Assembly (NCBI RefSeq): GCF_014193425.1
Contig: NZ_JACHZG010000001.1
Location: 3,534,001 to 3,598,000, forward strand
Length of the DNA: 64,000 nt
Direction of reading: 5' to 3'
Source: Microlunatus antarcticus
Lineage (GTDB): Bacteria > Actinomycetota > Actinomycetes > Propionibacteriales > Propionibacteriaceae
Below the pieces are notes generated by a model. The model was not told the origin of the DNA, did not search any database, and worked only from the letters and a program-made list of their open reading frames with translations. Shown here one piece after another: positions 23,704-27,829 of this stretch. Each line of letters opens with the position of its first letter. Position 1 is the stretch's first letter. The translations under genes and the position numbers were made by a program.

Positions 23704-24479
23704 TGGCCGACCGCAAGACGACGACGGTGACGCCCACCGCCAAGGAGGCGAAGGCGCTGGCCAAGCAGGCCCGCGCCGCCGCCAAGCTCCGTCGCAAGAC
23801 CAGCACCGACCCCGCCGACATGGGGCGCCTCAAGCAGATCCAGCAGGCGTACAAGGTCACCCACGAGTACGACCGCCAGCTCCCGTTCCTGCTGCTGGGC
23901 ACGTTCCTGCTGCCGGTGGTCGTCGGTCTCGTCATCGGCCTGCTCGTCGACCACGTCGTCTACGCCATCGTGATGGGCGCACTGCTCGGCGTCCTGCTGG
24001 CGATGGCGCTGCTCGTACGGCGGGCCAAGGGGGCGACCTACAAGCGGTACGCCGGCCAGACCGGCTCCGGCGAGGTCGCGCTGTCGATGCTCCCGAAGCA
24101 GTGGATCTCGACGCCGGTCGTCGCCGCCACGCGCCAGAAGGACGTCGTGCACCGCACGCTCGGCCCTGGCGGTCTGGTGCTGATCGGCGAGGGCGACCCG
24201 GCGCGGGCGCGTCAGCTGCTCGGCAGCGAGGCGCGCAAGCACGAGCGGGTCGCGTACGGGGTCCCCGTCACGACGCTGATGATGGGCGACGCGGCCAACC
24301 AGGTCCCCCTGGACAAGCTCGCCGACCGCATCCGCAAGCTCCCCAAGACACTGCAGCCCAACCAGGTCACCGACCTCAAGGCCCGCCTGCGGGCCCTCGA
24401 CGCCGTCCGACCCGTCATCGGCATGCCCAAGGGCCCGATGCCCACGCGCGCCTCGAAGCAGGCGACCCGCGGGCGCTAG
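23703..24479 (+). CDS. DUF4191 membrane protein
   Basis: This 258-residue protein has a Lys-rich N-terminal helix, two membrane segments (about residues 60-78 and 82-104), and a cytoplasmic C-terminal domain (GLVLIGEGDPARARQLL and KLPKTLQPNQVTDLKARL). It is the conserved neighbour of lipA (Rv2219 in M. tuberculosis, from memory) and of unknown function. The ATG overlaps the lipA stop (TGATG). The 3' end overlaps the stop of the opposing LysR gene at CTAG, so the two have no intergenic space. Confidence 0.88.
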   Translation: MADRKTTTVTPTAKEAKALAKQARAAAKLRRKTSTDPADMGRLKQIQQAYKVTHEYDRQLPFLLLGTFLLPVVVGLVIGLLVDHVVYAIVMGALLGVLLAMALLVRRAKGATYKRYAGQTGSGEVALSMLPKQWISTPVVAATRQKDVVHRTLGPGGLVLIGEGDPARARQLLGSEARKHERVAYGVPVTTLMMGDAANQVPLDKLADRIRKLPKTLQPNQVTDLKARLRALDAVRPVIGMPKGPMPTRASKQATRGR

Positions 24480-25438
24480 GCCCCCGGCCGGTCCCCCCGG
24501 GGTCGCATCAGCAGGTCCCGACCGACGGCGACCGTGACGCTCGTCGCGTCGCGGACCGCGGACTCCCGCATCAAGGCGATGACGTCGGAGACCTCCCTGC
24601 GCCTGTCGTCCACGCGGCGCGCGGCGACGTAGCGCACCTCTGCCACCTCCGTCAGGGCAACCGTCCGCACACAGCTTGGCAAGTAGCGGGCCTGGGGGGC
24701 GTGGACGACGGTGACGGCGCGGTCCTCGGCGACGGCACGGATCACGTCGGCCACCCCCCGCGCGGAGACATCGACCAGGCGGGCGGCGGAGGTCGGTCGG
24801 AGATCAGCGAGCACCCACGGTGCCATCCAGCCCCGGTCGACGGTCGGGTCGCGGAGCAACGGCAGCTCGGCGAAAGCGCCGCCGTCGACCTCGTTGCCCG
24901 GGAGCCGGTGAGATCGAGCGACCAGACCCACCCGTTCGACGGCGGCTAGAACGGTCTGGTGCTGCCGCAGGGCCGCGTGCTCGATGGTCCAGAGGACGTC
25001 CACGAGCTCGCGGTCGAGGCTCTCGTCGAGCAGGGGCAGCGGCACGCCGAGGAACCGGAGGTGCACCGACGGACGCCGGGCGAGGGCCCGGGCACGAAGC
25101 CCGTCCAGCAGCCGTCGGCTGGGGTAGTCGCCCACCGCCCCCGGCAACCCCACCCGGAGCGTCATGGTGCCGGCTCCGCCGGCCGTGGTGCGTCCTACCG
25201 TCCGCGCGTGCTCCAGCAGCGCTGGTCCGGAACCCCGCAGCCGCTCCCCCGCCGGCGTCAGCCGCTCGAACCCCGCCGGTCCCCGCTCGATCAGACGGGT
25301 GCCGAGCTGCTGCTCCAGGTGCTGCACCTGGCGGGTGAGGGCGGAGGCGCTGAGGTGGAGCCGACGAGCGGCGCGCGCATAGTGGGCCTCCTCGCAGACC
25401 ACGAGGAAGGCGGCCAGGCCGTCCAGGTCGAGATGCAC
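24476..25438 (-). CDS. LysR-family transcriptional regulator
   Basis: This 320-residue protein has an N-terminal winged helix-turn-helix (LAAFLVVCEEAHYARAARRL to VQHLEQQLGTRLIERG, residues 8-50) and an effector-binding domain after about residue 90. It diverges from the tail-fibre-like/metalloprotease pair. The space between carries GTTGC-N7-GCAAC, a T-N11-A LysR-type box. It is therefore probably the regulator of that pair, perhaps with autoregulation. The inducer is unknown. It lies at the border where the conserved housekeeping block stops. Confidence 0.88.
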   Translation of the reverse strand: MHLDLDGLAAFLVVCEEAHYARAARRLHLSASALTRQVQHLEQQLGTRLIERGPAGFERLTPAGERLRGSGPALLEHARTVGRTTAGGAGTMTLRVGLPGAVGDYPSRRLLDGLRARALARRPSVHLRFLGVPLPLLDESLDRELVDVLWTIEHAALRQHQTVLAAVERVGLVARSHRLPGNEVDGGAFAELPLLRDPTVDRGWMAPWVLADLRPTSAARLVDVSARGVADVIRAVAEDRAVTVVHAPQARYLPSCVRTVALTEVAEVRYVAARRVDDRRREVSDVIALMRESAVRDATSVTVAVGRDLLMRPRGDRPGA

Positions 25439-25499: not shown

Positions 25500-25516
25500 G
25501 TTGCCGATCATGCAAC
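25500..25516. promoter_or_regulatory. Candidate LysR box (GTTGC-N7-GCAAC)
   Basis: A perfect 5-bp inverted repeat with a 7-bp spacer (fitting T-N11-A) lies between the divergent LysR gene and the 25611 gene, 95 bp before the latter. Confidence 0.5.
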
Positions 25517-25610
25517 ACCACGGGCTCGGCGCGGGAGCGGGGGTCAGGGTGGGCTCGTCGAGGTCGGCGCGACAGAGCGCCACCGCAGAGATCCAGGACG
25601 AGGAGCCATC

Positions 25611-26636
25611 GTGGGCACACCCATCGACGTCACGTCGGCAGACGGGGCGACCACCGCGGTGCACGCCGTGAACACCAGCGGCGGGCTCGCGGTCGACGCG
25701 CGAAGCGACACCGGCAACGCGTTGCGAGGGACGTCCGTGAAGGGGCGCGGCGTGGTCGCGGCGAGCGACAGCGACTACGGGTTGGTCGCCTTCAGCCGCG
25801 CCATGCCGGGCCTTCGTGCCGACTCCGAGCTCGGCAACGCGCTCGAGGGCTGGGCGAAGGGCGGACCGAACGGGGTCCTCGGGCTGCACGCGGGCCAGGG
25901 CGTGGGGACCGCCGGCCGTTGCGACGCAGGGACGGGGGTGGACGGGGCGAGCACCACCGGGGTGGGGGTGCACGGGTCGAGCCAGAACGGCGACGGAGTC
26001 GTCGGACAGGGTCACCGCGGGGTCGTCGGGACCAGCACCGACTTCCAGGGCGTCTACGGGCACAGCGACACCAATGCGGGGGTCGTCGGTGAGAGCCAGA
26101 CGTTCGACGGTGTCTTCGCGGTGACCCACAACCCGCGAGCGGCGGCGGTATCCGGGCACAACCCAGGCGGGCTCGCCGGGTGGTTCGACGGGAACGTCGT
26201 CGTGACGGGCGACCTGGTCCTGGCCGGGGCGGACTACGCCGAGAACTTCGACGCCGCGCCCTCCGACGGGGTGCCGCCCGGGACGGTGGTGGTCCTCGAC
26301 GACGAGGGCCGGGTCCAGCCGTGCACCAGCGCGTACGACCGCCGCGCCGTCGGTGTCGTGTCGGGAGCGGGACGCTACCGACCCGGGGTGGTGCTCGACG
26401 GCTCCACCGCCACCGACCATCACGTGAGCCTGGCGCTGATGGGCAAGGTCTACTGCCTCGTCGACGCGACCTCCGACCCGGTCGAGGTCGGGGACATGCT
26501 GACCACCTCTGCGCGGCCCGGGCACGCGATGCGGGTGTCGGACACCACCAGGGCCTTCGGTGCCGTGATCGGCAAGGCACTGGCACCCGCCCGGGGGGAC
26601 GGGGCCCTCATCCCCGTCCTCGTGACGCTGCAGTGA
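25611..26636 (+). CDS. Tail-fibre-like repeat protein with peptidase-G2/IMC-like C-terminus
   Basis: In this 341-residue protein, residues about 80-175 hold at least eight short repeats of the type G-V-x-G-x-S (GVDGAS, GVVGTS, GVYGHS, GVVGES), which predicts a trimeric beta-helix or spike shaft as in phage tail fibres. The C-terminal part (ADYAENFDAAPSDGVPPG, AVGVVSGAGRY, LMGKVYCLVDA, then VEVGDMLTTSARPGHAM) resembles the intramolecular-chaperone/auto-processing domains on such fibres. The peptidase-G2 match is my recollection, not a search. There is no signal peptide. The GTG is preceded by GAGGAG. It overlaps the metalloprotease gene (GTGA). Confidence 0.65.
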   Translation: MGTPIDVTSADGATTAVHAVNTSGGLAVDARSDTGNALRGTSVKGRGVVAASDSDYGLVAFSRAMPGLRADSELGNALEGWAKGGPNGVLGLHAGQGVGTAGRCDAGTGVDGASTTGVGVHGSSQNGDGVVGQGHRGVVGTSTDFQGVYGHSDTNAGVVGESQTFDGVFAVTHNPRAAAVSGHNPGGLAGWFDGNVVVTGDLVLAGADYAENFDAAPSDGVPPGTVVVLDDEGRVQPCTSAYDRRAVGVVSGAGRYRPGVVLDGSTATDHHVSLALMGKVYCLVDATSDPVEVGDMLTTSARPGHAMRVSDTTRAFGAVIGKALAPARGDGALIPVLVTLQ

Positions 26637-27829
26637 GCACGCTCCGGCAGTCCGTCGAGATCCAGAAGGCCGCGGGTCGGGTCCCGAAGGACGAGAACAC
26701 CGGCCTGCGCGCCCTCGCGAGGCGTTTCCCGCCCTCCCCGCCCGGGTCAGCCCGCGGCGTGGTGCGGTCGATGGGCAGCGACGAGCCCAAGCCGTGGGCC
26801 ATCATCCTGTGCCGGCTGAAGGGCGAGCCGGCGGACCAAGCCAAGGAGGCGCCGGCGGAGACGCTCTACCGCGCCGTCTTCGCGAACCGCTCCGGCGGCG
26901 TCGGCGACTACTGGCGTGACGCCTCGCTGGGCCACATCGACGTGCGGGGGTCGCAGGTGTTCGGCTGGGTCACGGTCTCCCTGACCCGGGCTCAGGCCGG
27001 CGGGTCAGGCGCCACGACCCCGCCCGGGCCGGGACGGCGCGGCCTGTGCCAAGCCGGGATCGACGCGTTGCGCGCGACCGGGGTGGACACCTCGCCGTTC
27101 GCCGGCTTCGTCGCGGTCTACGTCGAGAACTGGTCCAAGGACGGGGTGATCCCGCCCGGGAAGACGCAGGAGGACATCCCGTGGGCGGTCTGGGCCCCGT
27201 TCTGGCTGGACGGCAGCGCGTCCGGCAGCTTCACCACGCTCACCCCGCCGCACGCCGCCGACATCGTGTGCCACGAGATGGGCCACGGCTTCGGGCTGCA
27301 GCACGACCGCACGCCCGGTCTGACCAAGGACTACGCCGACCCCTGCTGCCTGATGAGCCAGCGACCGCTCGCGTGGGACGACACCTACGGCACGAACTTC
27401 GGCCCTCGCGTCTGCGCCACCCACCTGCTGCAGAACGGCTGGATCTACGAGCACCGGGTGCTCCGCGACGACGGCGGTTGGTTGCGGTCTGGCAGCGGGA
27501 CCACGGTCGCGCTCGCCGCCACGGACGACGCCGGCGCGCGGGCCAACCTCCTGGCGATCCTGCGTGCGCAACCGGCTTGGGACTACCACCTCGAGCTGGC
27601 GCGGCCGACCGGGTGGGACCGCGGCCTCGACGCGGACCTTCTCCTGATCCGGCGCGTCGACCTCGACGAGAGCAAGAATCCGACGGCGATCATCCTGGGT
27701 CAGGTGGCGGTGCCCACTCGCCCCGGCGAGACCGCTTCTACGACCGAGCCGACCGGCAACGTGCTCTTCGAGGTGCGGCGCGGTGACGAGACGGGCCGTG
27801 TCGCGCTCGTCACGGCCACCGCACTGTGA
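26633..27829 (+). CDS. Metzincin-type zinc metalloprotease, no signal peptide
   Basis: This 398-residue protein has the zinc motif HEMGHGFGLQHD (HExxHxxGxxH; His214, Glu215, His218, His224) and a Met-turn candidate, CCLM (Met241). This is the metzincin pattern. Upstream (SGGVGDYWRDASLGHIDVRGSQVFGW) resembles the M6/immune-inhibitor and related clan MA pre-active-site region. The N-terminus (MSTLRQSVEIQ) has no signal peptide or propeptide cleavage signature. Its start overlaps the stop of the tail-fibre-like gene, so the pair is co-translated and perhaps co-delivered. The substrate is unknown. Confidence 0.75.
   Translation: MSTLRQSVEIQKAAGRVPKDENTGLRALARRFPPSPPGSARGVVRSMGSDEPKPWAIILCRLKGEPADQAKEAPAETLYRAVFANRSGGVGDYWRDASLGHIDVRGSQVFGWVTVSLTRAQAGGSGATTPPGPGRRGLCQAGIDALRATGVDTSPFAGFVAVYVENWSKDGVIPPGKTQEDIPWAVWAPFWLDGSASGSFTTLTPPHAADIVCHEMGHGFGLQHDRTPGLTKDYADPCCLMSQRPLAWDDTYGTNFGPRVCATHLLQNGWIYEHRVLRDDGGWLRSGSGTTVALAATDDAGARANLLAILRAQPAWDYHLELARPTGWDRGLDADLLLIRRVDLDESKNPTAIILGQVAVPTRPGETASTTEPTGNVLFEVRRGDETGRVALVTATAL

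Follow-up and report, generated by a model that had tools for sequence, protein, structure and literature searches.

The C-terminal domain of phi29 gp12 is an autoprocessing domain (Peptidase_G2) that cleaves itself. Constant scaffolds that accept many enzymes through a short, portable module are known from the cohesin-dockerin system and from encapsulins, in whose cargo peptides an SL[RK] step also occurs. Extracellular contractile injection systems (eCIS) combine phage-derived fibres with leaderless effectors bearing a short terminal signal; in the available part of PMC11297309, these signals are N-terminal and no conserved sequence was found for them. In this study, we analysed a gene pair in a 64,000-nt stretch of the Microlunatus antarcticus genome (contig NZ_JACHZG010000001.1, positions 3,534,001 to 3,598,000; hereafter the window). 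Gene A encodes a leaderless fibre-like protein and gene B a leaderless HExxHxxGxxH protease; as the initial annotation had described and as was confirmed here, the two overlap at GTGA behind a LysR box. Proteins encoded beside A relatives often carry a short helical sequence, termed the tag, at one end. The pair looks like one case of a widespread two-part system of bacteria and archaea. Our preferred reading, to which we assign a probability of about 0.6, is that A is a domesticated carrier of the phage-tailspike type and B an enzyme cargo docked to it.

No description of such a system was found in the open-licence literature, which excludes most subscription papers and preprints, and it is absent from the available parts of PMC8213781, PMC11297309, PMC12923769, PMC6542822, and PMC11476376. 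The proposed carrier and its tagged enzymes are thus apparently undescribed, as had been suspected from the sequence of the window. Compared with cohesin-dockerin and encapsulin cargo loading, no scaffoldin or shell is known here, and fold and repeats differ.

Protein A and its neighbours

Protein A has a variable shaft followed by a conserved domain of residues 199-341 (Table 1). Structure prediction gave this domain the fold of the Peptidase_G2/phi29 gp12 domain, with which it also shares the DxAExF signature. By sequence, the Peptidase_G2 match stays below threshold (16.7 bits; Pfam cut-off, 25). The family was matched at E ≤ 0.1 by 3 of 12 A relatives (best E, 0.0003), and A had no match in NCBIfam or PHROGs. 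Unlike gp12, in which Ser691 precedes the signature, the window protein has Ala before D208, and 86 of 91 relatives have Ala or Gly there; structure 3gqh, a C-terminal gp12 fragment, begins at residue 692. A also differs from gp12 in being encoded in cells beside tagged enzymes, outside a phage tail operon. No confident fold was predicted for the shaft. Of the fibre-like, self-processing protein with a beta-helix shaft proposed by the initial annotation, the fold of a self-processing tailspike domain was recovered.

Relatives of A were found by tblastn in 11 plasmid records (Streptomyces, Paraburkholderia, Rhodococcus, Hymenobacter, Acaryochloris, Rhodobacteraceae, Runella, and Leptospira). 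A scan of genome contigs confirmed at least 327 relatives; judged by record titles, the 80 loci kept from it span many bacterial phyla and include four archaeal metagenome-assembled genomes (L024, L036, L063, and L083) for which contamination is possible. No relative of A or B was present in 50,697 phage records. Over residues 199-341, the window protein is 40-55% identical to eleven relatives, with 22 invariant columns, and the N-terminal parts differ. A set of 92 loci was compiled from 80 loci kept from the contig scan, nine plasmid loci, L004, L005, and the window; two Leptospira plasmid records stand outside it. Gene starts were set with our own composition score, not by a gene caller. In all 91 other loci, the gp12-like domain lies at or near the C-terminus, and the shafts are variable. 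A and B have no signal peptide. A hydrophobicity scan flagged 3 of the 91 other A proteins, one of them with what looks like a genuine signal peptide. This Sec-type relative, on a Runella plasmid (L022), has a downstream neighbour that is also exported, bears a type IX sorting domain, and lacks the tag; the two may represent a secreted version of the arrangement. At L078 and L080, N-termini that by reading resemble a LysM domain and a zinc ribbon take the place of the shaft, and L100 and L039 each contain two A-type frames.

A downstream candidate gene was present at 89 of the 92 loci (no downstream open reading frame (ORF) at L024, L069, and L099). Candidates were dropped for gaps above 170 nt (L019, L028, L051, L080, L091, and L098) or, by hand, as spurious or broken (L020, L048, and L057). 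A co-directional gene starting no more than 170 nt downstream was thereby retained at 80 of the 92 loci; 64 start within 50 nt and 74 within 100 nt, three overlap A, and the median gap is 22 nt. The 80 encoded proteins, called cargo below, can be divided into 28 groups that BLASTP does not connect at E 1e-3. The largest group has 27 members, including B, and HExxH occurs in 31 proteins. When 30 proteins of the loci and one unlinked relative were scanned against Pfam, two exceeded the cut-off (L034, Metallophos; P0019, FlgD_ig), and matches below it included Peptidase_M6, Reprolysin, HEAT, and GDSL lipase. A minimal protease-specific module, as envisaged earlier, was therefore not borne out; the conserved A-type protein is paired with variable, often tagged neighbours.

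Several loci depart from the common arrangement. L019 has the order protease, HEAT protein, A, with the tagged genes upstream of A, and HEAT-repeat proteins are encoded beside protease cargo at both L019 and L021. At L028, a tagged gene lies 352 nt downstream of A. A small protein of unknown family is encoded between A and the next gene at L015 and L041; at L015, the latter encodes a metalloprotease (P0007) that contains an SVR element. On an Acaryochloris plasmid (L020, 5442-5735), the start of the downstream frame resembles that of a tagged metzincin, but the frame is cut short, which suggests a decayed cargo gene.

B has the zinc-binding motif, Met-turn, and fold of the metzincin clan. A first Foldseek search with its model returned nothing at E ≤ 0.001; a repeat structure search found metzincins. 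B resembles M6 (immune inhibitor A) metzincins but falls below the cut-off of the NCBIfam M6 domain TIGR03296 (40.2 versus 110.8 bits), and PHROGs gave one chance-level match only. The initial annotation had asked whether the pair recurs in other genomes, and homologues that never co-occur would have spoken against its reading. Orthologues of B (47% and 43% identical) do lie downstream of A relatives at L040 and L079, in distant phyla. A genome-contig scan with B alone gave 24 pattern matches, none of which was confirmed. B-like proteins occur in five other genomes of the family, all without A; among three that were read, one is leaderless, and in the other two the protease part directly follows a Sec-type leader. 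The absence of a signal peptide from B is likely due to its three-helix segment, which occupies the site of the Sec-type signal in these two A-less relatives.

A helical tag on cargo proteins

The tag, present on many neighbours at one terminus or the other, is made up of two to three helices capped by Ser, with the motif S-[LV]-[RK]-x-[LA]-[LAV]. A typical N-terminal layout is M-x-S-[LV]-R...S-[LV]-[RK]-x-[LA]-[LAV]...P-h-S-[LV]-R-x-L-L; in some neighbours, the motifs are absent from the N-terminus and present at the extreme C-terminus. The first 60 residues of the 80 proteins contain 84 strict motifs, compared with a mean of 14.6 after shuffling (largest, 27 in 2000 rounds); at least one was found in 49 proteins and at least two in 24. 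Residues 81-140 contain two strict motifs in total, and none of 77 proteins has two or more there. A leave-one-out model was applied to 69 non-redundant cargo proteins (80 minus 11 redundant ones). At least two motifs at one end were found in 42 and at least three in 18, whereas shuffled ends (200 rounds) gave means of 4.8 (maximum, 13) and 0.5 (maximum, 4), respectively. Some member of 16 of the 28 BLAST groups has at least two motifs at one end. At least two motifs were also found in 15 of 215 other ORFs of these loci, five of which are cargo by reading (L005; second genes in L034, L050, L053, and L094). In 14 aligned metzincin cargo proteins, M1, S4, S20, G151, C153, H181, E182, H185, N197, and M199 are invariant and S38 is nearly so; two tag serines are conserved as strictly as the zinc site.

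The link between tag and A was also followed across the window's phylum, in 396 genomes. Five of them, including the window genome, gave a strong A hit and two a weak one. In all four genomes newly found to have a strong hit, three or more motifs occur on a protein encoded next to A. This protein is a putative cysteine peptidase at L107, metalloprotease-like at L108, and a metzincin at L109; at L110, its motifs are C-terminal. In the genome of the last (G424), two A-type genes (L110 and L113) lie about 1.5 kb apart on opposite strands, with a tagged neighbour in view for one only. A profile of the tag alone gave 12 matches at E ≤ 1 in ten genomes, three of them its own members. Among the other nine, L122 (the best, E 0.004) and L126 (L046 locus) adjoin A, L127 (L053 locus) is the second gene after A, and six have no A within 1.5 kb. 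A metzincin cargo profile matched in 5 of the 396 genomes, and only the A-adjacent match (G548) aligns from position 1. The other four, from genomes with no strong A hit, match in the catalytic part only; by reading, they comprise a fusion to other repeats, a protein with a Sec-type start, another with a membrane segment, and a fourth with neither. The tag is absent from the A-less protease relatives examined. That A and the tagged cargo form a system is well supported.

Origin of A and competing explanations

In BFVD, the C-terminal domain of A also occurs in tail-fibre proteins from uncultured Caudovirales (lowest E, 5.5e-15), and IMG/VR contains A relatives at 31-41% identity. An A-type ORF was present in 78 viral relatives, of which 51 keep DxAExF by a simple pattern and 72 have a downstream ORF. 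These downstream neighbours contain no tag motif in 42 cases, one in 18, two in 12, and never three; nine of the twelve two-motif neighbours belong to one phage protein family, with two matches six residues apart. In a FastTree phylogeny of 145 distinct domains, a single branch (support, 1.0; length, 1.24) parts the 92 cellular domains from the 53 viral ones, without exception. The tree comes from one run with no outgroup, and its cellular set is the best 80 of at least 327, in which distant cellular forms are under-sampled; within these limits, it fits a single capture of the phage domain by cells.

The viral data bear on the view that the C-terminal domain is an intramolecular chaperone, cut off after the shaft has folded, and that cargo and tag contact something else or the shaft. 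The phi29 gp12 fold and the DxAExF signature are kept, in viral relatives as well, as this view would predict, but three motifs never occur beside the viral forms, and the separate cellular clade favours a cell-specific role without proving that anything docks to the domain. We consider the chaperone explanation unlikely, though not negligible. Somewhat harder to sustain is the idea that the tag is an eCIS loading or recognition signal and A a spare eCIS fibre or tube partner, with the particles encoded elsewhere. The eCIS cap protein Pvc16_N was searched for in the genomes of 35 of the 91 other loci, the window genome (G000), and G041 (the genome of L005). It is over-represented in these A-bearing genomes, occurring in 17 of 37 compared with 29 of 396 genomes of the window's phylum and 34 of 178 of the phylum of G211, in samples unmatched for taxa and genome size. 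It was found in 2 of the 5 strong-A genomes of the window's phylum versus 27 of the other 391, and in 4 of 6 A-bearing genomes labelled Bacteroidota. An association of A with injection systems is therefore possible, and eCIS effectors likewise have N-terminal signals (PMC11297309, available part). Against this, the excess may reflect lifestyle, 20 of the 37 genomes lack Pvc16_N, and A lies far from it on the same contig in G041 and G424. The window genome has neither the sheath (PF04984) nor the cap (PF14065, Pvc16_N), so an injection machine is not required. The tag also has a conserved sequence and may be C-terminal, unlike the signals described in that source.

Overlapping genes, the lack of signal peptides, and a protease cargo might instead indicate that A is an inhibitor or immunity partner of B, or that the pair is an intracellular toxin-antitoxin or phage-defence module. 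This seems very improbable: one conserved domain paired with 28 BLAST groups, some without HExxH, is unlike a specific inhibitor, and PADLOC gave no match for A, B (E ≤ 0.01), or four of five others, the fifth matching a generic phosphoesterase. Chance proximity of unrelated genes under a LysR regulator can hardly be credited. Both genes are uncommon in the family (A in 3 and B in 6 of 197 genomes) and co-occur there only in the window genome, but the orthologous pairs at L040 and L079 and the tag statistics contradict it.

Several points weigh against the reading of A as carrier and B as docked cargo. The motif was discovered and first tested on the same proteins; of the 69 cargo proteins, 27 reach two motifs at neither end, and 11 have none. 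The new loci are few, with cargo homologous to the training set, and no tagged gene lies within 1.5 kb of L113 or of the two weak A hits. Tagged cargo of G041, G259, G424, and G548 escaped the tag profile. The tag of B contains no strict motif, and only GLRALAR passes the motif threshold; its assignment is based on orthologues and a poor prediction (mean predicted local distance difference test score, 56.6; 7 sequences). The combination of a variable shaft with a conserved C-terminal domain would likewise be expected if that domain were only a folding chaperone, and contact between tag and A is our inference.

The window locus and a proposed mechanism

The features of the locus are listed in Table 1. 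The GTGA overlap likely couples the translation of A and B. A divergent LysR-family regulator probably controls the pair, and the LysR-type dyad matches once in the window (shuffle mean, 0.03). The initial annotation's LysR control is thus probable for this locus. The view that LysR belongs to the conserved system was rejected, since no homologue was found at E 1e-4 among ORFs of the other 91 loci; the regulation is local. An F420H2-dependent reductase gene (PF04075, E 2.2e-24) lies 3' of the pair on the opposite strand. As noted before, no phage structural or contractile genes stand nearby; by reading and Pfam, the neighbours between 22 and 31.5 kb are LysR, the F420-dependent reductase, and housekeeping-type genes. 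The genome has a single copy of A, apart from a 65-base match (G000:C1:263596-263660, L002) that is 79% identical to the A shaft and probably belongs to another glycine-rich repeat protein.

Table 1. Coordinates of features at the A-B locus (window positions)
Feature	Position	Strand	Remarks
Divergent LysR-family regulator gene	24476-25438	-	PF00126, E 1.7e-17
LysR-type interrupted dyad GTTGC-N7-GCAAC	25500-25516	.	Contains T-N11-A
Gene A	25611-26636	+	341 aa; leaderless fibre-like protein, proposed carrier; GTG start, GAGGAG upstream
A residues 1-198	25611-26204	+	Variable shaft; GVxGxS-type repeats (sequence, alignment)
A residues 199-341	26205-26633	+	Conserved C-terminal domain, phi29 gp12-like
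D208-x-A-E-x-F213 signature	26232-26249	+	Common to phi29 gp12 D692-F-A-E-Y-F697; alignment E 2.7, insignificant alone
GTGA overlap of A and B	26633-26636	+	B start codon inside A stop
Gene B	26633-27829	+	398 aa; leaderless M6-like metzincin, proposed cargo
B residues 1-48	26633-26776	+	Degenerate three-helix tag (TLRQSV, GLRALARR, SARGVVRSM); predicted helices 2-13, 25-31, 40-46
B residues 49-272	26777-27448	+	Metzincin catalytic part
HEMGHGFGLQH of B	27272-27304	+	Zinc-binding motif, HExxHxxGxxH
Met241 of B	27353-27355	+	Likely Met-turn; invariant in B alignment

On the carrier-cargo reading, A and B would be made together from their overlapping, translationally coupled genes. Three A chains would probably form a fibre, in which the variable shaft binds some surface and the gp12-like domain is the constant part. 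In the N-terminal tag of B, three short helices would each start with Ser, or a residue in its place, followed by a hydrophobic residue and Arg. Our proposal is that the enzyme docks through its tag to the C-terminal domain of A, most simply with one motif meeting each of the three subunits. After release by lysis or some exporter, the fibre would bring the tethered protease, or elsewhere another enzyme or a binding protein, to its target and putative substrate. We hold only tentatively, at somewhat less than even odds, the broader proposal that a phage-fibre C-terminal domain has been domesticated in many phyla as a universal carrier for delivery or display, in which a three-helix tag at either end of the cargo, with one helix on each subunit of the trimer, would load any enzyme onto a target-binding fibre without an injection machine.

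If the carrier-cargo reading is true, a family that has no name in the Pfam and NCBIfam copies searched would form the constant element of a modular system in bacteria and, as labelled, archaea. The short tag would be a route to finding cargo, most of which, as scanned here, has no Pfam family above cut-off. As a device of phage origin, the system would work without a sheath or a secretion signal, and it would offer a testable rule in which three tag helices correspond to a three-fold carrier.
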